This document shows positions 4,299-57,205 of a stretch of 64,000 bases of DNA, piece after piece. A model generated the notes under the pieces. That model saw only the letters and a program-made list of their open reading frames with translations. It did no database searches and had not been told where the DNA came from. The DNA comes from Balneola sp. (GTDB lineage Bacteria > Bacteroidota > Rhodothermia > Balneolales > Balneolaceae), in contig NZQV01000002.1 in NCBI GenBank assembly GCA_002696035.1, positions 62,001 to 126,000 on the forward strand, in the 5' to 3' direction. A program made the position numbers and the translations under genes. The number at the start of each line of letters is the position of its first letter. The first letter of the stretch is position 1.

Positions 4299-6709
4299 TC
4301 TTCCCCTTTCATTTCGATCTTATACAAATAATTTGTGGGTTCACTCCGCATAAAATTCAACTCAAACAGCTGACCGGTTCGCCACTCCTCAACCATATCA
4401 TCATAAGAGGAAGAGCCCGGATTTCCTGACTGTCCGCCGGGATACACGCCCCAGCCTTTCACCTGAGGTCCCAGTTCTACCACCATTCTCCAGGAAGGGC
4501 CATGCGTTCCCCGAACAGCATTGATGGCCTCAGCTGCTCCGCCCGTAAATAGATCCTGCATCCCAAAACCCGGAATATTGGCGAGGTGATTCAGGTCATT
4601 GTCAATATCGTAGCCCCATTTCCAGCTATCGAGATCCTCGCCGTAAAAATCTACCAGGTTGGCGATGGTTTCTTTGTAGGTCTTTGTAACTATTTCCTGC
4701 ACCGTTTCAACTTCGGCTGTATTGATGTCATCCACGAATGCCATCTTCGGTTCTTCCTTAATGATCTCCACAAAAATATCCCGGTCAGGATAGCGAAGAC
4801 CTGCCTCTGTGGCGTTATACTCATCATTAAAAATGGCTCTGTAAAACCGGTTTCTCCAATTCAGATACACCGTAGGCTCTATAAGTTCAGCCTCCATCAT
4901 GAAATCCCAATCGCGCATCATTTCAAGCACTTCCAATTCTTTGGTCGATAACTCTTCCGTATTGGTCCAGTCTATCATTTCGGGAATGATCGTAGAGGCA
5001 TTGTATGCGAAGTTATCCATCTGCATCCGCTGCATGTCCATTGGGGTGATGTTGTCCATCCTCTCAAGCAAGTCGTTGATGCGCCGGCCCCGTTCGTAGG
5101 GGGCAAAATCATCATCCAGGTAATAGGGATAATCGGGTGCAGCAGACTCCTGATTGGCCGAGCTCACAAACCCCCGTTCAGGATTTACGATATGGGGATT
5201 TTGTTCAGTGGGAATCCAGCCTTGCCAGTCGTACACCGGATCGGTTCCATCACTTACGGTTCGCCCCTGAAATTTCCATTTCTTGGGAAGTTTGCCGGAG
5301 ATCCAAAGTGCAATATCACCGGTGGTATCGGCAAACACAAAATTCTGAGCCGGCGCCACATAATGACTGACGGCTTCTTCATAATCTTCGTAATCCTGCA
5401 TTTTATTGAATCCATAAAACGTGAGCAGATCATTGGAATATTCGTGAGCAACCCACCTCAGCGCATGATATACCGGCTCGCCTTCTCCTGTTGCTGGTTC
5501 AACATCAAAAACAGGACCGTGATGCGTGTATATCACCGTATCCAGCACTGTTTCTTCGCCCCGGACTTTGATCTCTTCTACCCGCTGCGTGGTTGGCTTC
5601 CAGGTGCTATCGTGCCAGTATTCCTGTTTGGTTTCATCGCGGAATTTGATCTCGTACCAATCCATCACATCCGAACCTACGTTGGTAGTTCCCCAGGCCG
5701 TTTGCTCATTAAAGCCAATGATGATCGCGGGCGACCCTTGAAGTCCTACCCCGTACACATTAATTCCCGGAGCATGCAGCTGTGTCTCGTACCAGATAGA
5801 TGGAAGCGAGAGGCCAAGGTGCGGGTCGTTAGCCAGAATCGGATATCCCGATGCCGTCTTCTCGCCACTGACCACCCAATTGTTACTCCCAATTCCCTCC
5901 TGATGTGGAAACGGGTCGATCACCTCAGAAACAGCTGGAACAAAAAGGGAATCCGGACCTTCGGGAATATCCGCTTCAAAATCCCATTCTCGTGAAGGCG
6001 GAATGATGGGATCATTCAATTCCGGTTTTCGGGTGAAATACTTCTCCACAAAATCTTCTCCGAAATATTGCATGGTATTGCTGGTACGTACATCGTTATG
6101 GCGCCCAGCCAGCATACGCGTCATATTCTTTAATAAATAAGCAGTCTTGATCGGCTCCCATGGTTCCGGGGTGATGTCCAGGATCTTGTATTCCACGGGA
6201 TAATCACCCACCGAGAGTTCGCTGATATAGCTATTTACGCCCTTCGAATAGGCCTTTAAAATTCCTGATATCACGGAATCTTCAGAAATCGACTCCATTG
6301 CTTTTTCCGCACCGTATGCCATCCCCAAACGACGGGTATTCAGGTCTCTGGATAATGCCTGTGGTCCTGCTATTTCAGCCAACCGACCGCCAGCATCATA
6401 GGTTTGCATCTCCATCTGAAAAAGTCGATCGCGCGCTACGATGTATCCCTGCGCCATAAAGAGATCGTGCTCATTTTGGGCGAAAATATGCGGCACATTG
6501 CGTTCATCAAAATAGACGGTGACTTCATCCTGTAATTCCGGCAATTCAAGGGATAGGGATTCTGATTCTGAAGTCACAGCATTCGCCCAGAAACCGGCAT
6601 CAGGATCAAAAAACTTCCCCAGCGGCGGAACAGCTCCAAATTTGGTGTTGAGGGAGATGATTAAGGCAAGAAGGATAATTCCGGCAGAGAAGACCTTTAT
6701 AATTTTCAT
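4295..6709 (-). CDS. Penicillin acylase family protein (N-terminal nucleophile hydrolase, peptidase S45)
   Basis: An 804-aa exported protein with a single N-terminal hydrophobic signal. It follows the S45 plan: an alpha-subunit region, a spacer ending in GIG, then the autocatalytic beta-chain start SNNWVVSG (Ser275) with HG/ND residues typical of the active site (ILANDPHLGLSLPSIWYE). The family is made as one precursor that cuts itself to expose the serine nucleophile and hydrolyses amide bonds in acylated compounds; acyl-homoserine lactones and beta-lactams are known substrates, but the substrate here cannot be told. First gene of a two-gene minus-strand operon. Confidence 0.92.
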   Translation of the reverse strand: MKIIKVFSAGIILLALIISLNTKFGAVPPLGKFFDPDAGFWANAVTSESESLSLELPELQDEVTVYFDERNVPHIFAQNEHDLFMAQGYIVARDRLFQMEMQTYDAGGRLAEIAGPQALSRDLNTRRLGMAYGAEKAMESISEDSVISGILKAYSKGVNSYISELSVGDYPVEYKILDITPEPWEPIKTAYLLKNMTRMLAGRHNDVRTSNTMQYFGEDFVEKYFTRKPELNDPIIPPSREWDFEADIPEGPDSLFVPAVSEVIDPFPHQEGIGSNNWVVSGEKTASGYPILANDPHLGLSLPSIWYETQLHAPGINVYGVGLQGSPAIIIGFNEQTAWGTTNVGSDVMDWYEIKFRDETKQEYWHDSTWKPTTQRVEEIKVRGEETVLDTVIYTHHGPVFDVEPATGEGEPVYHALRWVAHEYSNDLLTFYGFNKMQDYEDYEEAVSHYVAPAQNFVFADTTGDIALWISGKLPKKWKFQGRTVSDGTDPVYDWQGWIPTEQNPHIVNPERGFVSSANQESAAPDYPYYLDDDFAPYERGRRINDLLERMDNITPMDMQRMQMDNFAYNASTIIPEMIDWTNTEELSTKELEVLEMMRDWDFMMEAELIEPTVYLNWRNRFYRAIFNDEYNATEAGLRYPDRDIFVEIIKEEPKMAFVDDINTAEVETVQEIVTKTYKETIANLVDFYGEDLDSWKWGYDIDNDLNHLANIPGFGMQDLFTGGAAEAINAVRGTHGPSWRMVVELGPQVKGWGVYPGGQSGNPGSSSYDDMVEEWRTGQLFELNFMRSEPTNYLYKIEMKGEE

Positions 6710-14958: not shown

Positions 14959-14987
14959 AGGTTAACTTGCGTTACTGTGCGGTAAAC

Positions 14988-15064
14988 AGGTTTCCCTACG
15001 CCGGTATTATCCGGTTCAGGTATCAGGGTGTAATCTCAGCCCGCTATGCAAGCACCCCCAACCT
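14988..15064 (-). promoter_or_regulatory. TPP (thiamine pyrophosphate) riboswitch, THI box
   Basis: The minus-strand RNA has the near-consensus aptamer: GGGGGTGC, then GCTGAGATTACACCC, then ACCTGAACCGGATAATACC and GGCGTAGGGAAA, closed by an AGGTT...AACCT P1 stem. All universally conserved TPP-aptamer blocks are present in the right order. It sits 65 bp ahead of the receptor start. Confidence 0.96.
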
Positions 15065-15079
15065 TGGTTGTGAATCCCA

Positions 15080-20492: not shown

Positions 20493-20665
20493 AATGATGT
20501 AACGGTTTGATTAAAAGGTATGGTTGATTCGTTACATCAAGATCAATGGAAAGATAGATGAGACTCGTAGTTTGAATGAAGATCCCACATCCTTGAACCA
20601 CCGTACCCGAGTTGGTCGGTTGGTAACCCGCCGAAGCGGATTTCTTGATGTCTTTTAGAAGATAA
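20493..20665 (-). promoter_or_regulatory. Conserved 5' leader, copy A
   Basis: The minus-strand leader contains a block (about 20590-20655) reading GGTTACCAACCGACCAACTC, GGGTACGGTGGTTCAAGGATG and TGGGAT that matches the leader of the paralogous gene at 21967-22130 with only a few changes, preceded in both by ACATCAAGAAAT. Between the block and the ATG the two leaders are much more diverged except for GATCTTGATGTAACG / GATCTTGGTGTAACG. This implies a copied promoter or RNA leader; its function is unknown. Confidence 0.55.
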
Positions 20666-21966: not shown

Positions 21967-22135
21967 AGTGTATAATGTTTATGTTCAGATTTACCTACGT
22001 TACACCAAGATCATTAGATGGAGATTGGATTCACCATTTGGATTGCCAATCCCACATCCTTGAACCACCGTGCCCGAGTTGGTCGGTTGGTAATCCGCTG
22101 AACCGAATTTCTTGATGTTTTTCGAAGATAATAAA
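21967..22135 (-). promoter_or_regulatory. Conserved 5' leader, copy B
   Basis: Second copy of the leader block (about 22045-22120; GGATTACCAACCGACCAACT, CGGGCACGGTGGTTCAAGGA, TGTGGGAT). The changes between copies include G-to-A and T-to-C pairs that keep the GC-rich centre. The block is also the region between this gene and the divergent HNH gene at 22199, whose promoter must lie in the AT-rich 22130-22198. Confidence 0.5.
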
Positions 22136-25376: not shown

Positions 25377-26200
25377 TTACAATCGTCGGGCGAAGTAATT
25401 GATGAGAACAATCTTAAAGCAAGAACTCGTCCGACCACTGAATCGAGAAACCGAAGTCCCAAGCTTTTGATATCCACCGAACAAGCAGCCTGAACAACCA
25501 AAAAGTGGTCCGACGAATGGAAAAGAGCACCATGTTTTCGGGGTTGCAGGAACAGTCTGGCTGGTATTCAATCGTCGGACGAGCTGTAGTCGTCGGACGA
25601 TAAACTGGCCTTTAATGACAAAGGAGTGAAGTGCTGCCACAAGTTTTAGCACCACCTTTGAATTATTAACAGCCATGTAAAACACGCGACTCTTGAGAGG
25701 CGCAGTACGACGTAAATCGACTCTCCAGAGTCGATAGTTATATTTTAAGGAAGAAGAGATTCTCTTAGTCTGCATCAAGACTTAAAATACCCCCTCTAAC
25801 AAGCAAGAACTCGTCCGACCACTGAAAGGGAAAAACTGTTTGCGCCAGCTTAGCTTCCCTACCGGGCAGGTTGTTTAACCAACACAGGAGTGGTCCGACG
25901 AATGGAAGACGAGATTTCCTGGTCTACATCAAAGCCGTAATACAACAATTTTAAGTCACCGCTCGACCGACAGTGGAATTTGAAGCATTCATATTACCTC
26001 GCTGAAGACTTAAAATATCCGGAGTGATTCGTCAGACGAATGCTTGCCTTTTATTATGGAGAGGGCTTCGGTGTAGAAAATGAAAGGCATAAAAATAGCC
26101 CGACCGGATTGCCTCCGTGGGCTTGTTTTTTTGAATAACTGCTCCAATATACGGCGGGATCGGCCCCTCGACCAAATCTGATTTGTTTTGTATAAGTAAT
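25377..26200 (+). repeat. RAYT-linked modular hairpin array A
   Basis: No gene. Modules in order: M2-like start (AATCGTCGGGCGA, 25380); M1 (CTCGTCCGACCACTGAA...AAGTGGTCCGACGAATGG, about 25426-25521); M2 (AATCGTCGGACGA-gctgtag-TCGTCGGACGAT, 25569-25602); M3 hairpin (GACTCTTGAGAG...CTCTCCAGAGTC, 25688-25732); M1 again (25807-25902); M4 (TTAAGTCACCGCTCG...CTCGCTGAAGACTTAA, 25951-26013); M5 (ATTCGTCAGACGAAT, about 26027-26041); M6 terminator-like unit (26083-26200). The same modules in the same order recur in arrays B-D. Confidence 0.85.
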
Positions 26201-26408
26201 AGAAACTAATAACAAGTCTATGCAGTCTCATCGACAATAAAAACTATTTGAAGAGGTATAATATGGCGACCATATCAGGTCGTTGCTGGCATTGGTGGAG
26301 CATCTAACGTCTGCTTTTGTGCGATATCGGTATTACGCCGGAATATTGTATTTCAATTTAGACGGCGTTTTTGCATTTTAATATAGTTCAGAACCAAATC
26401 CGTCTCCT

Positions 26409-28211
26409 ATGAAATCGATCCTTGTTACCCTTTTGCTTCTACTCCCTTCGGCACTGTCAATTCCGGTTATGGCTCAAAATTTTTATCCCGGAAATTACTT
26501 TTACATGGTGGCCGAAGATGATCAGTCTTTCTTTTTTGAACCTTCCGGCTTTTCGCCTCTGCAAACCGGGGTTTTTGAGGATATTGCGGTGTCCTTGTCT
26601 GACCACCCGCTGTCGGCGATCAATCGAAATCCGGCTAGTGTAAATCAATTTTCCGGCAAAGGGTATGCCTACCTCGATGTAAAGACCCTGCCCGAGGAAA
26701 ACGTCAGGAATTACTATGGCTGCGAGGTTTGTCTGATGAGTCAAATGGCGTATATCTATCTGCCGGAGCCTACACCGAAAAGAACACAAGAGCCGTTTTT
26801 ATCGACTGCGCTGTTCGTGAATCCCCTGGAAAATGAGCGGCTTATCCTTGGGGTCGCCTATCAGTTCATGCAGATGAAGGAGTCGTATTACCGGCGTGTT
26901 GGGTATCCGTATGGATTTACGCATCTGTCTGATCCGGGCTTGTTGAGTGTCGATCAGCAGCAGTCGTTTCTTGGTGGTGAGGATTTTTTCAATAAGTACG
27001 GACATTTCCCAACCGCCTATGCCGGCTATCGCTTTTCTGATGATATAAATGTGGCTTTGAAACTAAGTTATAACAACTATCAGGGGCGGGGTTCTATGCT
27101 GTCAGATAACTTTGGTCAGATGGATGTAGCACCCTATCCCCAAACCAATAACTTCGACAGAAGCCGCCATATCAATTATAGTCACTGGGATCTTTCGGCG
27201 GGATTACAGCTTCGGTTGAATAGCACAATGGATGCGGGTTTCACTGCGGGTTTTCTTACGGGAGATCAGGGTCAAACGGCACGGGAATATTATCAGCAGG
27301 AATATCTTAATGAGGCGCATCCCAATTACGATGACTATTATTACAATTATGATAGCAATTTCTCACAAAGAGATGGCTTTAACCGTACCGGACAGAGACT
27401 GTATGGCTCGCTGGAGTACAACTGGCAGCAGCATGAAAGCCGCGTTTTCCGCTTGACCTATCGCGCATCACGGGCGTTTCAGGATCTTGGATATGGGCTT
27501 ACTTCATCGAGTGCCGGAAGTTATGAGTCTCAAACATTTCGAAATTCTGATGAGGAGGTCTTCCGGATATCTGAGGACCTGCAGAGTACCTACAGCGATG
27601 GGGCTGGGGACTTCACGGAGTGGCGAAATCAGGGCGGATTTTTTCTGATCCAGGATCTTGGAAATAGTACACAGCTCAGAACCGGATTTCAGGTGTTGCA
27701 TGTGAGTGCAGAGGAAACGGTGTCGGAGGTCTACCAAAGACAGTATGAGGAGCACACCTTCGAGCGGGTTAATGACGGGCCACTTACGGAAAGCCGGTAT
27801 GACCGGGAACATATGCGGGAGCTGGATGTCACCCAAAACAAGTATGAGTTTACCGGGCATATTCCGCTGATCTTGAGGAGATCGTTTGGGGATCTGTTTT
27901 CTGTGGAAGCGGGTGTGTTGGGGACACATCAGCGTTTTATCCGTACCTACGACCAATATTTTCAGTATGAAAATGATTACGTGACTGTTCAGGAGGGCGT
28001 CATGGAAGCAGAACAAAACGAAAGTGATTACCGCGATAATGGCCGAGCGAGTGACAACTGGACGCACTTCAATCTGTATGGTTCTGTAGTCTACTCTCCT
28101 TTCGATCAGTTTCAACTTCGGCTCATGACTTTCTCGGATCGCCGGCAGATCAACACGGTCAGTAATATGGATGCTTTCCGTTTTCGTGTCTCTGCTGAGA
28201 TTGAGTTTTAG
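26409..28211 (+). CDS. Outer-membrane beta-barrel protein of unknown function
   Basis: A 600-aa secreted protein (signal peptide ending in PVMAQ, mature start NFYPGNYF). The rest alternates polar and hydrophobic residues in ~40 short strands with aromatic girdle residues (FLSTALFVNPLENERLILGV, FNLYGSVVYSPFDQFQLRLM) and ends in F (RFRVSAEIEF), as usual for outer-membrane barrels. No TonB plug is seen. Not assigned to a family. It stands alone between repeat arrays A and B. Confidence 0.75.
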   Translation: MKSILVTLLLLLPSALSIPVMAQNFYPGNYFYMVAEDDQSFFFEPSGFSPLQTGVFEDIAVSLSDHPLSAINRNPASVNQFSGKGYAYLDVKTLPEENVRNYYGCEVCLMSQMAYIYLPEPTPKRTQEPFLSTALFVNPLENERLILGVAYQFMQMKESYYRRVGYPYGFTHLSDPGLLSVDQQQSFLGGEDFFNKYGHFPTAYAGYRFSDDINVALKLSYNNYQGRGSMLSDNFGQMDVAPYPQTNNFDRSRHINYSHWDLSAGLQLRLNSTMDAGFTAGFLTGDQGQTAREYYQQEYLNEAHPNYDDYYYNYDSNFSQRDGFNRTGQRLYGSLEYNWQQHESRVFRLTYRASRAFQDLGYGLTSSSAGSYESQTFRNSDEEVFRISEDLQSTYSDGAGDFTEWRNQGGFFLIQDLGNSTQLRTGFQVLHVSAEETVSEVYQRQYEEHTFERVNDGPLTESRYDREHMRELDVTQNKYEFTGHIPLILRRSFGDLFSVEAGVLGTHQRFIRTYDQYFQYENDYVTVQEGVMEAEQNESDYRDNGRASDNWTHFNLYGSVVYSPFDQFQLRLMTFSDRRQINTVSNMDAFRFRVSAEIEF

Positions 28212-28261
28212 GGAAAGGTTTTTGGGTTGATGGAAGCCTGTTGGCAAATAGTTTGAATCAT

Positions 28262-28505
28262 GCATACTTCCTCGCTAAAGACTTAAAATACCCCTGTAAC
28301 AAGCAAGAACTCGTCCGACCACTGAAAGGGAAAAACTGTTTGTGCCAGCTTAGCTTCCCCACCGGGCAGGTTGGTTAACCAACACAGGAGTGGTCCGACG
28401 AATGGAAAAGGCAACCATGTTTTCGGGGTTGTAAAACCAGACTGACCAAGGGACAATCGTCGGACGAACTTGGAGTCGTCGGACGATGAACTGGTCTTAA
28501 TGGAC
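28262..28505 (+). repeat. RAYT-linked modular hairpin array B, left part
   Basis: Starts with an M4 right end (CCTCGCTAAAGACTTAAAAT), then M1 (28311-28406, with the perfect palindrome GTTGGTTAACCAAC inside) and M2 (28451-28485). The unit is cut off right before the transposase gene at 28574; sequence 28506-28573 is AT-rich and probably its promoter. Confidence 0.8.
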
Positions 28506-28573
28506 AATGGCGATAGTCAAAAATGTAAAGTGTAGAATTTTTAAAATTTATTCTTATTTATTAATCTCAAGTC

Positions 28574-29182
28574 ATGCAATTCCATCCGGGGTACACATAT
28601 CACGTTTATAATCAGGGAAACAACAGGCAGCAACTATTCTTTGAACTTGAGAATTACGTTTACTTTTTAGAAAAAATACGTAAAGGGTTTTTACCCCATT
28701 GCGATATATTGGCTTGGTGTTTAATGCCTAATCATTTTCACTTTTTGATTACGATTCATGAGAATTATGTACATGAAGATGCTATTCAGAATAAAGAGAA
28801 AATTGTAAATCCCTTAAACCGCCAAATTGGAATTATTCAAAGTTCATATACCAAAGCGATAAATAACCGATATGGAAGAAGCGGATCTTTATTTCGGCAA
28901 AACACGAAAGCAAAAAGTTTAACAGAACAGGATCGAGATAAAATAGATACGGGGGTAAACTGTTTCTTTTATATTCATCAGAATCCTCTTAAAGCAGGCT
29001 TAGTTAAAAAACTTGAAGACTGGGAATTTTCTTCTTTCAAAGATTATGCTGGCATGAGAAACGGTGACCTATGCAACAAAGATTTGGCAAAGGATTTGTT
29101 TAAACTTCCAAATGAACCAAGCAAATTTTATAATCTTTCCTACCAAACTATTCCAGAGGAGGTAGTAAAAAGGATAAACTAA
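28574..29182 (+). mobile_element. REP-associated tyrosine transposase (RAYT, Y1/HUH family), copy 1
   Basis: A 202-aa IS200-like HUH transposase: N-terminal YHVYNQGNNRQQLFFELENY, the HUH pair in NHFHFLI, and the tyrosine motif FYIHQNPLKAGLV near residue 138, with the ...DWEFSSFKDY end typical of RAYTs. It has none of the IS200/IS605 accessory genes or left/right ends. It sits directly inside the densest block of hairpin repeats in the window (arrays A-D), consistent with the known pairing of RAYTs with REP sequences, which they are thought to spread. CDS is intact. Confidence 0.9.
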
Positions 29183-29244
29183 AAAGGTATTCTTGCTTAG
29201 CTTCAGTAGCCAAACGAATACCTGCCAGAGTCAACCCACCCTTG

Positions 29245-30289
29245 TCCGACCACTGAAAGGCAAAAACTGTTTGCGCCAGCTTAGCTTCCCCACCGAGCAG
29301 GTTGTTTAACCAACACAGAAGTGGTCCGACGAATCTAAAAGGGCAACTCTGCTTTCGAGGTTGTAGAACCAATCTGGCTGGTCTTCAATCGTCGGACGAG
29401 TTTGGAGTCGTCGGACGATGAACTGGGTTTTATGACAAAGGAATGAAATACTGCCACAAGTTTTAACACCGCCCGGGAATTATTAACAGCCATGTAAAAC
29501 ACGCGACTCTGGAGAGGCGCAGTACGATGTAAATCGACTCTCCAGAGTCGATAGTCATATTTCAAGGAAGACAAGATTCTCTTAGTCTGCATCAAGACTT
29601 AAAATACCCCCTGTAACAAGCAAGAACTCGTCCGACCACTGAAAGGGAAAAACTGTTTGCACCAGCTTATCTTCCCCACCGTGCAGGTTGGTTGAGCAGT
29701 CATGAAGTGGTCCGACGAATAAGAAAGGCAACCATGTTTTCGGGGTTGTAAAACCAGACTGACCAAGGGACAATCGTCGGACGAACTTGGAGTCGTCGGA
29801 CGATAACTGGGTTTTATGACAAAGGAATGAAATACTGCCACAAGTTTTAACACCGCCCGGGAATTATTAGCAGCCATGTAAAACACGCGACTCTGGAGAG
29901 ACGCAGTACGATGTAAATCGACTCTCCAGAATCGATAGTCATATTTTAAGGAAGACGAGATTCTCTTAGTCTGCATCAAGACCGTAATACAACAATTTTA
30001 AGTCACCGCTCGATCGACAGTGGAATTTGAAGCATACATACTACCTCGCTGAAGACTTAAAATATCCGAAGGTTGGTTCAGGTATTGGAACCTTATAAAA
30101 TATTCGGGAGAGTGATTCGTCAGACGAATTCTTGCCTTTTATTATGGAGAGGGCTTCGGTGTAGAAACAGAAAGGCATAAAAATAGCCCGACCGGATTGC
30201 CTCCGTGGGCTTGTTTTTTTGAGTAACTGCTCCCAATATACGGCGGGATCGGTGCCTCGACCAAATCTGATTTGTTTTGTATAAGTAAT
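29245..30289 (+). repeat. RAYT-linked modular hairpin array B, right part
   Basis: Two and a half units: M1 (29247-29340), M2 (29388-29420), M3 (29505-29549), M1 (29628-29720), M2 (29771-29805), M3 (29889-29930), M4 (29998-30060), M5 (ATTCGTCAGACGAAT, 30115), M6 (30171-30289). The first ~380-bp unit repeats almost exactly. After the first M3, the sequence goes straight to AAGACTTAAAATACCCC; after the second it runs through a full M4 before reaching the same AAGACTTAAAATA. Confidence 0.85.
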
Positions 30290-30389
30290 AGAAAGTAATC
30301 TTTATTGAAGTTTATCCTAAAGCTTATAATAGTTGTTTAAGTAAATTTAATATGTGTGTCTCAGGACGGCATCTTTAAACTTTCAGCAA

Positions 30390-30436
30390 TCAGCTTTTAG
30401 CTTTTTTGTTCGGGAAGGCAAAAAAACTGAAAGCTG
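30390..30436. repeat. Inverted repeat, heptamer-type, upstream of M28 peptidase
   Basis: TCAGCTTTTAGCTTTTTTG faces CAAAAAAACTGAAAGCTGA (17 of 19 positions pair) in the region 30290-30527, which otherwise holds AT-rich leader sequence for the M28 peptidase gene. Related TTCAGC-type 7-bp repeats occur at 1720-1745. Confidence 0.6.
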
Positions 30437-30527
30437 AAGCCTGACGGCTGATAGCTTTAAACAGCATTCCATAACCGGCAGAATATTGTATCTTCCGGCA
30501 ACCGAAATTGTCATTTATCTTGTGATC

Positions 30528-31799
30528 ATGAAATTGCGTACTCTCCTTTTCTCTTCCGCTGCCTTTGCCTTGCTGATATCCTGTTCATCCACTGAAGACC
30601 CGGCCTCCACTTCCCCGGCTATTTTACCAAGCGATATCTCCACACACATTGATTTCCTTGCCAGCGATGCGATGAAAGGTCGTGAAGCAGGTACTGCTGA
30701 AGAGGCCAAAGCGGCTAACTACATTGCTGATCATTTCCGGAAATTTGGTCTTGACCCGGCCGGGACGGAGAATACTTATTTTCAGGAGTTTACGGTGAAT
30801 ATGTCGGTGCTGGAAAATCCACATGCTTCCGATTCCGGTTCTACCGCTGACAAACGACTGGCTAAAAACGTAGCAGCCTTACTTCAGGGAACCGGTGATT
30901 CTGAAGAAGTGATCATCATCGGGGCGCATTACGATCACCTGGGGATGGGTGAATTTGGCTCTCTCAGCAGCAGCGGGCCAAAGATCCATAACGGAGCAGA
31001 TGATAATGCATCGGGTACGTCGGGATTACTGGAACTGGCCGAGTATTTTTCTGAAAACCGTCCTGAAACCGATCTTTTGTTCCTTGCCTTTTCCGGGGAA
31101 GAAATGGGATTGCTAGGTTCTCAGTATTATGTAGAGAATCCAACCGTGGAACTGGATAATGCGCTGGCAATGATCAACATGGATATGATCGGCCGCATGA
31201 ATGAGAAGCGTCTGATGATCTTCGGAGTGGCTACTACCGACTCCTGGGAAAGCATCCTCACCGATGCCAACATCGATTCCCTGAACCTTGACCTGGTACC
31301 TGACGGAACCGGAGCAAGTGATCACACAAGTTTTTATTACAAAGACCTTCCTGTTCTTCATTATTTCACCGATACCCATGCCGACTACCACCGGCCTTCG
31401 GATGATCCAGAGTGGATCAATGCGGAAGGTCAGGCTTTTCTGCTTCAGCATGTAGCCCGGGTTATCGAGCAGCTGGATGCTATGGATAAGCCTGAGCTGA
31501 CTTTTAACGCAGCTCCTGGTCAACAGCGACAGTCTATGAGTATGGACGGCCCAACGCTTGGTGTCCTCCCGGATTACGGCTTTGACGGAGAAGGATTTCG
31601 CATCACCGGTGTGAGTGATGGCGGTCCGGCCAGCAAAGGCGGACTTGAAGGAGGCGATATCATCATCCGCATCGGCGATATGGAAGTGGCTGATATCTAC
31701 GCCTACATGGGCGCCCTGAATGAACTGGAGAAAGGACAATCGGTTGAGGTCGTTGTTCTGCGCGATGATGAAGAGATGACCTTTGAGCTGGAGCTGTAG
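30528..31799 (+). CDS. Lipoprotein M28-family metallopeptidase with C-terminal PDZ domain
   Basis: A 423-aa protein with lipobox LLISC. The zinc-peptidase domain shows all M28 ligands: GAHYDHLG (His), NGADDNASGT (bridging Asp), FSGEEMGLLG (Glu pair), NMDMIGR (Asp) and YFTDTHADYHRPSDDPEW (His). The last ~85 residues are a PDZ domain (GVLPDYGFDGEGFRITGVSD, GGPASKGGLEGGDIIIRIGD). The family includes aminopeptidases. ATG 30528 starts the lipoprotein signal; an upstream in-frame start at 30486 is not needed. It probably acts in the periplasm or at the surface. Confidence 0.93.
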   Translation: MKLRTLLFSSAAFALLISCSSTEDPASTSPAILPSDISTHIDFLASDAMKGREAGTAEEAKAANYIADHFRKFGLDPAGTENTYFQEFTVNMSVLENPHASDSGSTADKRLAKNVAALLQGTGDSEEVIIIGAHYDHLGMGEFGSLSSSGPKIHNGADDNASGTSGLLELAEYFSENRPETDLLFLAFSGEEMGLLGSQYYVENPTVELDNALAMINMDMIGRMNEKRLMIFGVATTDSWESILTDANIDSLNLDLVPDGTGASDHTSFYYKDLPVLHYFTDTHADYHRPSDDPEWINAEGQAFLLQHVARVIEQLDAMDKPELTFNAAPGQQRQSMSMDGPTLGVLPDYGFDGEGFRITGVSDGGPASKGGLEGGDIIIRIGDMEVADIYAYMGALNELEKGQSVEVVVLRDDEEMTFELEL

Positions 31800-31878
31800 G
31801 CAGATTAACTGCTCGTAGACCGGATAGCTTTGTCCGGCCAATTTAAAATTGAACATGAAGCTTGGGAGTACTTTTGTG

Positions 31879-31948
31879 GTCTTGGCCACAGGCACCCTCC
31901 GCCAGATTTCGCATCCGCTCACTCCGGCACCTCCCTTCCCGTATTCAC
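31879..31948. repeat. 70-bp direct repeat flanking the DUF559 gene, left copy
   Basis: Begins GTCTTGGCCACAGGCACCCT and ends CCCTTCCCGTATTCAC. 65 of 70 bases match the right copy at 32439-32508, in the same orientation. The region 31800-32029 holds nothing else recognised. Confidence 0.85.
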
Positions 31949-32029
31949 CAAATTCTCTTTTTTTCTAAAATAATTCTGTAAGGAATCCTCATCTCACCGC
32001 TCTTACAGTAAAAAAAGTAAAAGCAAATT

Positions 32030-32418
32030 ATGCCTCGTAACCTCATCATTCCTTACGACCAAAAAATGAGAGCGATTGCCCGCGAACTCAGAAAAAACAT
32101 GACCCTTTCGGAGATCCTGTTATGGAAACAGATCCGACGCAGAAAACTTGGGGTTCAATTTCACCGACAAATCCCGATGGATTCTTTTGTCGTGGATTTC
32201 TATTGCCACGAGATCATGCTGGCTGTCGAGATCGATGGAAACTCGCATGACAATCCTCAAAATGCTGCTTCCGATCTAGAACGGCAGCTGCGACTGGAGT
32301 CTTATGGCGTGCGGGTATTCGTATTCCAGACAATGAAGTGAGGCGAAATCTGGATGGGGTTGTCCAATATTTGAAGAGGAAAGTAGACGAGTTGGTGGAT
32401 TTAAAAAATAGAGATTGA
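32030..32418 (+). pseudogene. DUF559 (Vsr-like endonuclease fold) gene, frameshifted
   Basis: The first 103 codons (to 32341) give a DUF559 protein: MRAIARELRKNMTLSEILLW, KQIRRRKLGVQFHRQIP, and the nuclease core FVVDFYCHEIMLAVEIDGNS. The family normally ends ...GVRVLRIPNxEVxxNLxxVL. Here the first frame reads YGVRVFVFQTMK-stop, while the next frame continues RIPDNEVRRNLDGVVQYLKR and KVDELVD to a stop at 32418. A single lost base around 32316-32322 (GTATTCGTATTCC) explains it. The CDS is flanked by 70-bp direct repeats. It is either a recent pseudogene or a sequencing error. Confidence 0.85.
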
Positions 32419-32438
32419 GAAGTGGGATTATGTTTGAT

Positions 32439-32600
32439 GCCTTGGTCACAAGCACCCTCCGCCAGAGTTCGCATTCGCTCACTCCGGCACCTCCCTTCCC
32501 GTATTCACGGGAGAGGACTTTCCGATGTAGTAATTTAAAACTTAGTCTTTTCCTGCAAATATCTTGTATTCAATATCAGAAAGTCTCCTCTCGTGAATAG
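32439..32600. repeat. 70-bp direct repeat (right copy) plus inverted tail
   Basis: Direct repeat at 32439-32508, then TATTCACGGGAGAGGACTTTC (from 32501) whose near-reverse-complement GAAAGTCTCCTCTCGTGAAT follows at about 32578-32599. So the DUF559 gene is followed by an inverted pair as well as being flanked by direct repeats. Confidence 0.75.
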
Positions 32601-32641
32601 AAGCTTATAAACAAAAATTGAATCAATTCACCCAGAAAAAG

Positions 32642-33300
32642 AAAGGCATAAAAATAGCCCGACCGGATTGCCTCCGTGGGCTTGTTTTTTTGAGTAACTG
32701 CTCCCAATATACGGCAGGATCGGTGCCTCGACCAAATCTGATTTGTTTTGTATAAGTAATGATAGGCAATCAGTAATCAATCAATAATTATAGCTGATAA
32801 TTACTGAATGAAAGTCCCATAATATGCAGCTCTTTTTAAAATAAATTGTAGATAAGTTATCTAAAGAATAGCGGTTTTGAGTAATATTGACTTCAATTGT
32901 TATGATTAACTGCCATGTAGAACACGCGACTCTGGAGAGACGCAGTACGATGTAAATTGACTCTCCAGAGTCGAGAGTCATAAATAATACGCAAGACAAG
33001 ATTCGCCTGGCCAACATCAAATCCGCAATACATTAATTTTAAGTCACCGCTCGGCCAACAGTGGCATTTGAAGCATACATACTACCTCGCTGAAGACTTA
33101 AAATATCCCTAAAAACCTCGTCCGACCACTGAAAGGAAAAAACTGTTTGCACCAGCTTACCCTACCCACCGCGCAGGCTACTTGATCAACAACGAAGTGG
33201 TCCGACGAATAAGAAAGACAACGCTTTTTTTGAGGTTGTAAAAACAGTCTGGCTGGTATTCAATCGTCGGACGAGCTGTAGTCGTCGGACGATAAACTGG
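32642..33300 (+). repeat. RAYT-linked modular hairpin array C
   Basis: No gene in 32601-33365. Order: M6 terminator-like unit (32642-32760), ~150 bp of AT-rich filler, M3 (about 32928-32975), M4 (33039-33101), M1 (33118-33212), M2 (33261-33298). Here M6 comes first and M4 precedes M1, which is the same circular order as in arrays A and B, cut at another point. Confidence 0.82.
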
Positions 33301-33365
33301 GAAGAAAAACCGGTTGGGCCGAAACATGGATTATTTTAAGAGACGGACAGGCTGTCCGACCTACG

Positions 33366-34181
33366 TTAATTTAAATTCATGTCTGCCTGGGAAGAGCTGA
33401 AGGCGACGTCTTCGTCAAATTTTTGGCTGCCAAAGGATTCTTCCATCTCCGCACGTAGTTTCTGGATCGTGAGTCCACTGGTGAGCGATCCGTTTCGGGC
33501 AATGGAAATACGTCCTGTTTCTTCGGATACCACAAGCACAAATACATTATTGGATTCACTGATCCCTACTGCGGCACGGTGGCGGGTTCCAAATGAGGAG
33601 GAGATGTTGGGGTTTTGGGAAATGGGAAGATAACAACTTGCTGCTACGATCCTGTTGCCACGAATAACCACGGCTCCATCATGCAAAGGCGTTTCTTTTT
33701 TAAAGATAGTGATCAGCAATTCCGTCTTGATCTCGGCATCGATATTCACCCCGGCATCCACAAGGTCTTGCAATGAGGATGTTCGCGCAAATACAATAAG
33801 CGCTCCGATCTTATTCTTGGACATTTCTTTAACGGCTTCAATCACCTCATCTATGGTCTTATCCGAATTGGAAGTCGAAAAAAAGCGGTCGATACTCGTA
33901 TTGGTCCCCAGCCGATACAGCAGCTTTCTGATCTCTGGCTGAAACAGAATGATAAGCGCTATGATCCCTACATCAAGGATCTGACTTAGAATGGAATTAA
34001 TGGTGGAAAATCCCATCAACCCAATGATCACATTCACGATCACCACAAACAAGATTCCGAGTGCGGCCTGAATGGCAAAGGTGCCTTTCACCCATCGGTA
34101 TAGATATACCAAGACGAGCGCGATGATGAGCGTCTCGACGAAATCCTTTATTCCGAATTCAAGAAAACCTATGGGGAACAA
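33366..34181 (-). CDS. cdaA: Diadenylate cyclase CdaA
   Basis: A 271-aa membrane-anchored cyclase that makes c-di-AMP from two ATP. Three N-terminal transmembrane helices, then the DAC (DisA_N) domain with DGA (residues 168-170, in LHDGAVVIRG) and RHR (200-202, in GTRHRAAVG). c-di-AMP controls potassium, osmolyte and wall homeostasis. Starts at a TTG (34181), 15 bp after folP, so the two genes are co-transcribed, as is common in this group. Confidence 0.95.
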   Translation of the reverse strand: MFPIGFLEFGIKDFVETLIIALVLVYLYRWVKGTFAIQAALGILFVVIVNVIIGLMGFSTINSILSQILDVGIIALIILFQPEIRKLLYRLGTNTSIDRFFSTSNSDKTIDEVIEAVKEMSKNKIGALIVFARTSSLQDLVDAGVNIDAEIKTELLITIFKKETPLHDGAVVIRGNRIVAASCYLPISQNPNISSSFGTRHRAAVGISESNNVFVLVVSEETGRISIARNGSLTSGLTIQKLRAEMEESFGSQKFDEDVAFSSSQADMNLN

Positions 34182-34196
34182 AGCCGTGTGGTTAGG

Positions 34197-35024
34197 TTAT
34201 TGTTGGGATTGAACTGCGTTGAATATACGAATAGAATCGGAAGCTTCCTTCACATCATGTACGCGGAGTATATTAGCTCCTTTCATCAGTGCATGGTAAT
34301 GAAGTGCGATGGTACCTGTCAGGCGATCTTCTGCGGGCTGACCATCCAGTATCGTTCCTATCAACGATTTCCGGGAAGCTCCAACCAATACCGGAAATCC
34401 AAATTTCTGAAATTCTTCAAGATGAGCAATAAGCTTCAGGTTGTGCTCCAGCGTTTTCCCGAAACCTATACCGGGATCGAGGATCACTTTTTGTACGCCT
34501 CGTTCCTGCAGCAGGGTCAGTTTGTCACCAAAAAAAGAAAGCAGGTCACTTACCACATCATCATACTGCGGATCTTGCTGCATCGTTTTCGGATCTCCCT
34601 GAGAGTGCATCAAAATATAGGTGGCGTCATATTCTGCACAAAGATCAGCCAGTACGGGATCTTTTAAACCGCTTACATCATTCACAAAACTCACTCCCAG
34701 TTCCAGGGCCTCTTTGGCCACTTCCTGCTTGGTGGTATCAATAGAGAATTCAGCCTTATTAAATATTGGGATCCCCTTTTCCAGTACGGGCATCACCCTG
34801 TCTAATTCTTCCTGAACTGAAACGGGCTCAGCACCCGGCCGCGTAGATTCTCCCCCAACATCTATGATCTCCGCTCCATTTTTTTGCATGATGTGGATAC
34901 GGTCCATAGCCCGGTTCATATCGGTGTACCGACCGCCGTCGCTGAATGAATCGGGCGTAACATTCAAGATCCCCATTATTTTTGGGAATGTATCAGCACC
35001 CGATTTTGATCTTTTTTGCGACAA
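34197..35024 (-). CDS. folP: Dihydropteroate synthase
   Basis: A 275-aa TIM-barrel enzyme of folate synthesis that joins p-aminobenzoate to the pterin pyrophosphate. Signatures: ILNVTPDSFSDGGRY near the start, DVGGESTRPGAEPVS, and DPGIGFGKTLEHN. The final GASRKSLIG and RVHDV segments match the family ends. Upstream of cdaA in one transcript. Confidence 0.97.
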   Translation of the reverse strand: MSQKRSKSGADTFPKIMGILNVTPDSFSDGGRYTDMNRAMDRIHIMQKNGAEIIDVGGESTRPGAEPVSVQEELDRVMPVLEKGIPIFNKAEFSIDTTKQEVAKEALELGVSFVNDVSGLKDPVLADLCAEYDATYILMHSQGDPKTMQQDPQYDDVVSDLLSFFGDKLTLLQERGVQKVILDPGIGFGKTLEHNLKLIAHLEEFQKFGFPVLVGASRKSLIGTILDGQPAEDRLTGTIALHYHALMKGANILRVHDVKEASDSIRIFNAVQSQQ

Positions 35025-35138
35025 ATTGGAGAGATTGACTGTAGATAATTTTAATACGAGATCTGATGCAGCCTTTTTCTATAAAGACTAATATCCATAA
35101 GACGGATTAACCGTTAAATGGATCAATGGATCAGCATT

Positions 35139-35474
35139 CTACCAGGCTTCGATGAGGTCATCGCGTTTGTCTTCTTTGGAAGCCCATTCATCGGCATCAG
35201 GCAAAGCATCTTGTGTTTCGTTAATAATGCGATCTTCCCAGGCCTCAGAGAGACGCTCGTTCAGGTCGATGTAGTCTTCCCATTTTTCAGGAACTTCATC
35301 ATCCGGATAAATAGCTTCAACGGGGCATTCCGATACGCAAGCATCACAATCGATGCATTCCATAGGGTCGATAACCAGGAAATTGGGTCCTTCGCGGAAG
35401 GCATCAACCGGACAAACGGCTGCGCAGTTGGTGTATTTGCATTGAATGCAGGGTTCAGTAACAATGTAAGGCAT
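35139..35474 (-). CDS. fdxA: Seven-iron ferredoxin (FdxA type)
   Basis: A 111-aa ferredoxin with two clusters: C9-x2-C12-x4-C17-x3-CP and C40-x2-C43-x2-C46-x3-CP, the 3Fe-4S/4Fe-4S pattern ([20 protein letters not shown]). The C-terminal ~55 residues are acidic and helical, as is usual for FdxA-type proteins. It acts as a low-potential electron carrier. Monocistronic, 115 bp upstream of folP in the same direction. Confidence 0.95.
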
Positions 35475-35705
35475 AAAATAAATTGATTAGGGTTACAAAA
35501 TGAGTGAGTTTTGCAAGTCGGAATATCCCCTCACTTTTTGACAGATGCAATCTTAATAAGCAGTTGTAAGCGGTTTTAATTTATTTATTTGTACCATTGT
35601 CCATTTTCAGTGACCGAAGCCATCGATAATTCCGAGCCATCCCTCCTCGAATATTGAATATTGAAAAGAGGAATATTTAAGTGAAGATGATAAAAAAACC
35701 CCATA

Positions 35706-36140
35706 CCCGTCCGACCACTGAAAGGCTCAAACTGGTTACGCCAGCTTATCTTCCCCACCGCACAGGCTGACTGACTAATCCAGAAGTGGTCCGACGAATG
35801 GAAAGGGTAACCAATTTTTCAAGGTTGTAGAAACAATCTGACTGGCAGTCAATCGTCGGACGAGCTTTAGTCGTCGGACGATGAACTGTACTTTAAAAAC
35901 AATGGAATGAAATCCTGCCATGTAGAACACGCGACTCTGGAGAGACGCAGTACGATGTAAATTGACTCTCCAGAGTCGATAGTCATAAAATAATAAGGAG
36001 GGCAATATTCTCCCGGCCTATGTCAAAACCTTAATACAATAATTTTAAGTCACCGCTCGGCTGGGAGGGGTATTTGAAGCATACATATTAGCTCGCTGAA
36101 TACTTCAAATATCCCTGGGGATGAACTGGGTCTTAAAATA
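35706..36140 (+). repeat. RAYT-linked modular hairpin array D
   Basis: No gene in 35475-36192. Modules: M1 (35707-35800), M2 (35850-35884), M3 (about 35932-35980), and a decayed M4 (36044-36111; left end TTAAGTCACCGCTCGG intact, right end GCTGAATACTTCAAA mutated). The last stretch, 36165-36185, is a heptamer-type repeat (TTCAGTTTTGAATGTTGAAT) touching the end of the next gene. Confidence 0.82.
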
Positions 36141-56123: not shown

Positions 56124-56369
56124 ATGTCTACGGCGAGCCCAAAAACAGACCTCGATGACAGTATCATTCATATCACTCAAGTCTGAAGACTTGCCCCGCT
56201 ACCACTTTTCAGTCACCGCATTCGCTCAAGACTGAAAAGATCCCAAAATGATTGCTGAAATCAGAGGAGATATCTTAAGTCTTCAGCGAGGTAAAAATTC
56301 CTAATTCGGGTTAACATGTCTTCCGAGCGGTGACTTAAGATCCATAGCAAAACAAGTCTTCAGACTTGA
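56124..56369. repeat. RAYT-2 hairpin repeats, left flank
   Basis: No gene in 55960-56399. Three hairpins: CAAGTC-TGAA-GACTTG (56179-56192); CTTTTCAGTCACCGCATTCG with arm AGACTGAAAAG (56205-56240); TCTTAAGTCTTCAGCGAGG...CCGAGCGGTGACTTAAGA (56274-56341, 68 bp, reverse orientation of module M4 in the first repeat family). Then CAAGTCTTCAGACTTG at about 56352. Confidence 0.85.
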
Positions 56370-56399
56370 ATAAAAAACCTCGTCTATTATCTTTAAAAC

Positions 56400-56951
56400 A
56401 TGCCGGGGTTTAAAATTCATAATCATCAACAAGCTCATTTTATCACCTGTACAGCAGTCGACTGGATAGATGTATTTACTCGCCCGGTTTATAAAGAAAT
56501 TATCATTGATAGTCTGAAACACTGCCAGAAAAACAAAGGTCTGCGAATTCATGGTTGGTGTTTAATGACAAATCACATTCATTTAATGATAAGTGCAAAG
56601 GAAGGCTATAACCTTTCTTCAATAATCAGAGATTTTAAAAAATTCACTTCCTATACAATTTTAGAGGATCTTCAAATAAATCCCCGGGAAAGCAGAAGAT
56701 CCTGGATGCTATGGATGTTTCGAAGAGCCGGACAACAGAACTCCAATAACAAAAACTTTCAGCTTTGGCAGCAGAATAATCGGCCGATGGAAGTAACCTC
56801 AAATAAATTTTACACTCAGAAAATGAATTACATCCACTACAATCCTGTGAAAGAAGGCTTTTGCAAAAAACCCGAAGACTATCCCTACAGCAGTGCACAG
56901 TGGTATATTGATAAAACCGGACTTATTTCTATAGATGAAATATTGATCTAA
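56400..56951 (+). mobile_element. REP-associated tyrosine transposase (RAYT), copy 2
   Basis: A 183-aa Y1/HUH transposase of the RAYT type: HFITCTAVDWIDVFTRPVYK at the start, the HUH motif NHIHLMI, and the tyrosine region NYIHYNPVKEGFCKKPEDYP with the SSAQWY end. It is from another RAYT subgroup than copy 1. It is bracketed by two 68-bp direct copies of the same hairpin repeat, 56274-56341 and 57107-57174. CDS is intact. Confidence 0.92.
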
Positions 56952-56999: not shown

Positions 57000-57204
57000 T
57001 CAAGTCTAAAGACTTGCTTCACTGATACTTTTCAGTCTCCGCATTCGCTCAAGACTGAAAAGATCTTAAACTAGAAATCGGAAAATTGACAGGATAACTT
57101 GGTATATCTTAAGTCTTCAGCGAGGTAAAAATTCCTAACTCGGGTTAACATGTCTTCCGAGCGGTGACTTAAGATCCAAAGTAAAACAAGTCTTCAGCCT
57201 TGAA
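57000..57204. repeat. RAYT-2 hairpin repeats, right flank
   Basis: Same set and orientation as on the left: CAAGTC-TAAA-GACTTG (57001), CTTTTCAGTCTCCGCATTCG with arm AGACTGAAAAG (57028-57062), and TCTTAAGTC...GACTTAAGA (57107-57174). The 68-bp unit is nearly identical to the left one. Apart from this and the terminator, 56952-57269 holds nothing. Confidence 0.85.
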
Positions 57205-57205
57205 C

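Follow-up and report, generated by a model that had tools for sequence, protein, structure and literature searches.

Between positions 25377 and 36140 of a 64-kb stretch of contig C6 (the whole stretch analysed, here called the window) from a 3.97-Mb Balneolaceae genome (G000), four arrays of short hairpins surround a gene for a REP-associated tyrosine transposase (RAYT; REP, repetitive extragenic palindrome), raising the question of what kind of element such compound repeats represent. An initial annotation proposed either a new composite element of about 380 bp moved by this RAYT, or a structured RNA. The arrays are instead very probably mosaics of repeats of the REP or REPIN (REP doublet forming hairpins) type, belonging to three RAYT (TnpA_REP) systems within this one genome and arranged as tandem alpha-beta-gamma stacks. 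The locus would thus be an unusually elaborate case of a known kind of repeat, rather than a new kind of element. Alpha denotes modules M1 and M2 (hairpins H1 and H2, respectively), beta M3 and gamma M4; P0001 is the RAYT alpha protein. G-numbered genomes form the genus set, and L numbers denote loci or stretches from relatives.

Ordered arrays around RAYT alpha

The initial description of modules M1 to M6 as recurring across the arrays, in one orientation and one cyclic order, was borne out by a pattern scan of the window, in which every M1–M6 match fell on the plus strand and none on the minus strand. The scan counted seven M1 3′ arms, twelve M2 boxes (six pairs), five M3, four left and five right M4 arms (including a half-copy at 28272), two M5 and three M6. 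Within 25377–36140, 47 different 14-mers are present at least four times, against a maximum of zero over 100 first-order Markov samples, and array units are pairwise 79–97% identical in local alignments. The features are as follows.

25428..25612, plus strand: alpha unit (M1 and M2), array A, by sequence pattern and alignment
25684..25738, plus strand: beta unit (M3), array A
25812..25902, plus strand: alpha hairpin H1 (M1) alone, array A
25948..26019, plus strand: gamma stem-loop (M4), array A
26027..26041, plus strand: M5 palindrome ATTCGTCAGACGAAT, which by eye resembles a minimal alpha box
26074..26200, minus strand: M6 copy, a duplicated conserved intergenic segment resembling a small-RNA gene
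28262..28290, plus strand: gamma 3′ half only, array B
28310..28491, plus strand: alpha unit left of the RAYT, array B
28574..29182, plus strand: RAYT alpha (P0001, 202 aa), HUH-type Y1 transposase, from Pfam, NCBIfam, a structure match and motifs
29243..29425, plus strand: alpha unit right of the RAYT, array B
29501..29556, plus strand: beta unit, array B
29628..29808, plus strand: alpha unit, array B
29885..29940, plus strand: beta unit, array B
29995..30066, plus strand: gamma stem-loop, array B
30115..30129, plus strand: M5, second copy
30160..30300, minus strand: M6 copy
32634..32760, minus strand: M6 copy
32924..32979, plus strand: beta unit, array C
33036..33107, plus strand: gamma stem-loop, array C
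33118..33298, plus strand: alpha unit, array C
35707..35888, plus strand: alpha unit, array D
35929..35984, plus strand: beta unit, array D
36042..36113, plus strand: gamma stem-loop, array D

Array A thus reads alpha, beta, a missing gamma, H1 alone, gamma, M5 and M6; array B a gamma half, alpha, the RAYT, alpha, beta, a missing gamma, alpha, beta, gamma, M5 and M6; array C M6, beta, gamma and alpha; and array D alpha, beta and gamma. The cyclic order would follow from the arrays being pieces of a tandem (alpha-beta-gamma)n. Alpha stands on either side of the RAYT in array B, with beta and gamma farther out. A separate 104-bp direct repeat (31845–31948 and 32405–32508, 83% identical) flanks a DUF559 reading frame and is unrelated to alpha, beta or gamma.

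The P0001 reading frame carries the HUH and tyrosine motifs (NHFH at residue 53, YIHQNP at 133), and scores 24.5 bits against Pfam Y1_Tnp, narrowly over the cut-off of 23. Its sole clear relative of solved structure is E. coli TnpA_REP (4ER8, E 4.6e-5), over the 25 residues 132–156. P0001 is single-copy, the next best match by score in the genome being 38% identical. An IS200/IS605 insertion sequence was considered and rejected, as in such elements transposase and ends move as a unit and several near-identical copies exist, whereas P0001 occurs once. From its sequence the locus appears arranged like a REPtron, given repeats on both sides, a single gene copy and dispersed doublets, and alpha is the predicted cognate doublet of the RAYT at 28574.

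Beta and gamma have RAYTs of their own

The initial annotation was correct in linking the repeats to a RAYT, but the RAYT within the array pairs with M1 and M2 alone, M3 and M4 being found instead on the flanks of two further RAYTs of the genome, each without alpha. The beta RAYT is on contig C20, and RAYT gamma lies in the window itself, outside 25377–36140.

56400..56951, plus strand: RAYT gamma (183 aa), 41.6 bits against Y1_Tnp and 106.4 bits against NF047646 (cut-off 80)
56175..56380 (approximate), strand not given: gamma units left of RAYT gamma, from sequence
57000..57205 (approximate), strand not given: gamma units right of RAYT gamma, from sequence

Box patterns were counted on both strands of ten genus genomes, including G000, with the reversed pattern as control and palindromic sites counted twice. 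Copies do exist elsewhere in the genome and in relatives, a point that the initial annotation had set as a test. In G000 there are 76 alpha matches (control 6), 61 beta (control 2) and 19 gamma (control 0). Merging at 400 bp reduces these to 22, 31 and 18 loci, respectively, with 17, 27 and 14 located outside the arrays. Beta is nearly private to this genome, with zero or one match in each of the nine relatives. G022 also has gamma (11 matches, control 0), the remaining eight genomes having zero to two; alpha is likewise shared with G022 (26 matches, control 6) and is at or below control in the other eight.

A survey of 45 RAYT loci (41 distinct genes) in the ten genomes, which excluded RAYT alpha of the window and left one additional fetched RAYT locus without a tblastn match outside the 45, found the beta RAYT to be the only one with beta boxes inside 500 nt. 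Six RAYTs share 70% identity or more with gamma; gamma boxes stand beside three of these (100, 77 and 76%) and at no other locus. None of the 45 has an alpha box. As to whether modules are equally common without a RAYT, beta occurs almost only with its RAYT and gamma mostly so, whereas alpha is also found in G022 without a close alpha RAYT.

A profile built from five RAYTs matched G000 ten times, strongly in eight cases (two of them with an internal stop) and weakly in two. Two further RAYT genes of this genome, at C8:59311 (L209) and C8:36578 (L210), one with an internal stop, are flanked by other palindromes, GAAGCAGGAGCTTC... and GGGCAAGCTGCCCG... (by eye). Since these differ yet again from alpha, beta and gamma, there seem to be at least five RAYT/repeat pairs in one genome.

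Repeat spelling follows RAYT lineage

The closest congeneric homologue of P0001 is in G028 (63% identical), and is flanked by two-hairpin units of different spelling. A 13-base pattern for this G028 type has 86 matches in G028 (control 0) and zero to four in each of the nine other genomes, while the alpha pattern has none in G028; among the 45 RAYT loci, the G028-type box stands only beside the alpha-clade RAYT of G028. In G025, a G028-type doublet occupies the site downstream of disA where the window has array C.

Farther afield, 80 RAYT relatives were kept out of 434 found. Exact TCGTCCGACGA hairpins (the alpha core) lie on both sides of the RAYT in L098, a Saprospiraceae metagenome-assembled genome (MAG; RAYT 51% identical), at 4819–5001 and in the flank after 5570. 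The RAYT of L142 (Bacteroidales MAG, 45%) is flanked by one exact and several one-mismatch alpha-core boxes, at 443–560 and after 1138. These are the only two alpha-core clusters among the 80; the other 78 have none, although seven carry one to four scattered one-mismatch matches. Many of the 78 carry other hairpins, so the layout of a RAYT with flanking hairpins is apparently more widespread than the spelling. A hairpin lies within 300 nt of the RAYT in 65 of the 80, compared with 13 of 80 control stretches, which were taken 1.2–1.8 kb away and comprise 1.7 times more bases; for hairpins with a same-base central mismatch the counts are 22 and 2.

Mismatched stems in the alpha doublet

The alpha unit of about 185 bp consists of two hairpins, H1 closing a loop of about 65 nt and H2 one of 6–7 nt, whose arm cores are complementary to each other through a mismatched centre. 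H2, beta and M5 are single hairpins of about 15–30 nt each. M1 and M2 each have one mismatch in mid-stem. M3, initially described as a perfect 12-bp stem, does have that stem as its minimum-energy fold, but all 12 pairs are perfect in only three of five copies. Compared with shuffled sequences, folding energy is clearly better for M3 (z −5.4), M2 (z −3.4) and M5 (z −2.5), with M4 at z −1.5 and −2.0.

When the stretches fetched from G000 and relatives were searched with a profile, 36 distinct alpha matches resulted, from which 28 H1 and 16 H2 hairpins were parsed by pattern. The H1 stem centre is pyrimidine.pyrimidine in all 28 (C.C in 18), and that of H2 is G.G in ten, A.G in three and G.T in three, such that none of the 44 hairpins has a Watson-Crick pair at this position. 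C.C in one hairpin thus accompanies G.G in the other in this genome, while some relatives have T.T with A.A or A.A with T.T. By eye, the H1 centre is T.T and the H2 centre A.A in L083, L084 and L087, the two being exchanged in L082 (the same RAYT region as G028, by a 120-base identity test) and L086; a scripted parse confirmed T.T with A.A for L083 and L084 and A.A for L086, and did not recover L087 or L082.

Within the genome this pattern may stem in part from mutation bias, because C-to-T changes alone cannot create a Watson-Crick pair here. The between-species result is the stronger, but comprises few species. In E. coli, correcting REP stem mismatches severely affects TnpA_REP activity, as reported in the available portion of PMC8266576, and on that account a role for the mismatch in recognition by the RAYT is plausible by analogy.

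Origin of the arrays and alternative explanations

Array D lies in the 718-bp gap between a ferredoxin and a phosphodiesterase gene. These genes are side by side in seven of nine relatives, all seven of which lack array D; in six the gap is about 120–135 bp, and in the seventh (G028) it holds about 530 bp of other sequence. Of the remaining two, the contig ends in G027, and the stretch fetched from G022 showed no second gene. This distribution makes it most likely that array D was gained in this lineage. With spacers included, units B2 and B3 align over 357 bp at 89% identity, and A and B2 over 289 bp at 88%. Gamma is missing in A and B2 between two AAGAC repeats; the scar (A at about 25775–25795, B at about 29592–29612) leaves CATCAAGACTTAAAATACCCC and looks like excision or slippage, the direction of change being inferred as loss.

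Judging from its family, each RAYT, an HUH Y1 enzyme, would act on single-stranded DNA, where it would recognise the hairpin doublet specific to it, cleave next to this and insert copies between genes. Beta from the C20 RAYT and gamma from the 56400 RAYT would have landed beside alpha, after which the alpha-beta-gamma block may have been amplified as a tandem of about 385 bp per unit. Pieces of the block would then have lodged between neighbouring genes, and M6 would be a passenger whose source was an intergenic region of the host; this order of events is a proposed one. Spread of the blocks by a RAYT and by recombination both fit.

A single new composite element, in which alpha, beta and gamma (with M5 and M6) move together through the RAYT at 28574, would account for an order and orientation fixed over four arrays that sit in different intergenic gaps, and for unit alignments that continue through the spacers. 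Alpha followed by beta or gamma in the same orientation also recurs at C1:22.4–22.7k, C1:25.1–25.8k, C3:452.4–453.1k, C27:4.1–4.2k and C3:334.0–334.1k. However, most loci hold a single family, only 16 of the 58 alpha, beta and gamma loci outside the arrays having another family within 800 bp. The corresponding null mean is 0.9 when loci may fall at any position, about 8 (P 0.03) when only 10% of the genome is open to them and about 5 (P 0.0015) when 15% is; as the intergenic fraction is assumed, this clustering is not leaned on. The nearest alpha-beta box distance in the distant pairs varies from about 50 to about 620 bp, G022 has alpha doublets but no beta, and beta and gamma scatter alone and beside RAYTs of their own. 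The composite proposal is weakened accordingly, and is now very improbable.

That the modules are domains of one transcript is barely credible. Several hairpins do come in a fixed order, M3 and M2 are more stably folded than shuffled sequences, and M6 has a terminator-like hairpin. At gathering scores, however, an Rfam search of the window returned only a thiamine pyrophosphate (TPP) and two S-adenosylmethionine (SAM-I/IV) riboswitches, none of them in the arrays. Seven relatives lack array D in the corresponding gene neighbourhood, modules occur singly over the genome, the M1 loop is highly variable among dispersed copies, and the stems retain a central mismatch, contrary to what conservation of pairing would favour; a structured RNA is thus not supported for M1–M4. 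The TPP riboswitch is at 14976–15069, and the SAM-I/IV riboswitches, about 1.5 kb apart on the minus strand, are at 20558–20656 and 22027–22123.

Passive amplification, whereby relic repeats spread by recombination or replication slippage only and with no active part for a RAYT, is quite improbable. It would fit a tandem, cyclically permuted block, the loss of gamma between AAGAC repeats in A and B as slippage would leave it, and orphan copies in G022, G025 and G026. Against it stand the HUH and tyrosine motifs of the RAYT alpha reading frame, together with the dispersal outside the arrays and the match between repeat spelling and RAYT lineage, the latter two pointing to RAYT action, at least in the past.

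Several observations nonetheless weigh against the RAYT-mosaic assignment. M1 (z −0.9) does not fold clearly better than shuffles, nor does the whole alpha unit (z −1.6), and perfect stems in L090, L093 and several other relatives mean that the mismatch is not universal. P0001 scores 60.3 bits against NF047646 (REP_Tyr_transpos), under the cut-off of 80, and the beta RAYT also falls under the NCBIfam REP-transposase cut-off. The alpha matches of G022 include full M1 and M2 units, while its best match to P0001 is only 37% identical; this genome has either lost its alpha RAYT or has it unassembled, as some alpha sites are within 300 bases of contig ends (C8 and C16). G025 and G026 have four and three G028-type matches, respectively, without a close alpha RAYT, and three gamma-like RAYTs (70–73%) have no nearby gamma box. 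Such orphan copies and box-less RAYTs fit relics or assembly gaps, and equally a loose coupling. Alpha orientation, compared by eye with GC skew in 20 stretches of 16–20 kb and the window, has no consistent sign, although gene direction confounds the skew. Nor was any excision, cleavage or new insertion observed.

A farther-reaching combination is on the whole unlikely. It holds that the matched mismatches form a code, read by the RAYT as the mark of the right strand and fold, that code and RAYT change together between species, and that the doublets of several RAYTs fuse into one shared mobile block able to carry a host small-RNA gene.

M6, a candidate small RNA gene

Sequence comparison suggests that M6 is a duplicated host intergenic segment with a candidate RNA gene of about 50 nt on the other strand. 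With up to six candidates scored per genome, it was matched in 23 of 92 family genomes, including G000; of the 22 relatives, 14 have one match each and some have several copies. M6 is upstream of a gene for a small helix-turn-helix protein in 16 of 21 printed loci (by eye), and the likely original is G000:C3:156485 (L035). Read on the opposite strand, 33 distinct copies (including the three from the window) have in common a promoter-like TTTGG...TATATTGG, and nearly all have a close variant of the 5′ sequence CAGTTAnTCAAAAA. Most carry a variable, terminator-like hairpin and T run, the stem differing between species, with L067 and L072 as exceptions. Rfam returned nothing for M6, either in the window or at the loci of six relatives, and neither the repeats nor the M6 RNA are named for Balneolaceae in the literature found, mostly open papers.

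Comparison with known repeat systems

The pairings described here are worked examples of repeat and RAYT in this phylum, including one lineage in which the spelling changes between congeneric species, and with both pairings and spelling change given, recognition can be tested by swapping partners. They also illustrate that independent mobile systems can contribute repeats to a single ordered array, and that such an array can incorporate a regulatory segment of the host.

Bacteroidetes RAYT repeats have been described as 'atypical secondary structures' (PMC6006769). In the part of that source available, TnpA_Y1 subclass 2.6, equivalent to RAYT group 5 of Bacteroidetes, resembles P0001 in its host phylum and YIH[QN]NP motif, and in flanking structures of this kind that lack GT[AG]G and have further copies elsewhere in the genome. 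It differs in having NH[LIV]H, where P0001 has NHFH and lacks WQ; subclass 2.4 would also accommodate NHFH and the insert that follows it in P0001. On motifs, P0001 would fall between the two. By eye, the alpha foot is mostly GAAY or GTTC/GTAC, with no GTAG-type tetranucleotide, and the beta foot GTAA, GTAC or GTAG; the absence of GT[AG]G from subclass 2.6 repeats indicates that this signature does not define all RAYT repeats.

REPINs and bacterial interspersed mosaic elements (BIMEs), as covered in the available parts of PMC8266576 and PMC6006769, share with the present repeats inverted hairpin doublets in many copies, a flanking HUH Y1 gene, several REP families per genome and tandem copies. 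Alpha, beta and gamma occur as short palindromes, M1 alone not folding better than shuffles, in inverted doublets; they are dispersed in multiple loci, and each of the three stands on both sides of its RAYT. The differences are the size of the alpha doublet, well beyond a unit of about 20–40 bp, the long H1 loop, the alpha foot without GTAG, and three RAYT families interleaved in one tandem array. CGTC-tagged REPs, with an unpaired CGTC at one end, a stem of 8–9 bp and a loop of 4–5 nt (PMC3733652, in part), were considered and rejected for alpha, in which CGTC lies inside the paired arm and both loops are longer. Integron attC sites, which go with a nearby integrase and with cassette genes between them, entered the comparison only as another kind of folded single-stranded DNA site. 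Mosaics as such are known, since Neisseria CGTC-1 elements interleave REP-like repeats with other repeat families in large mosaic intergenic regions (PMC3733652); there, in the part of the paper available, no transposase was found beside the CGTC repeats, whereas each family has its own RAYT here.

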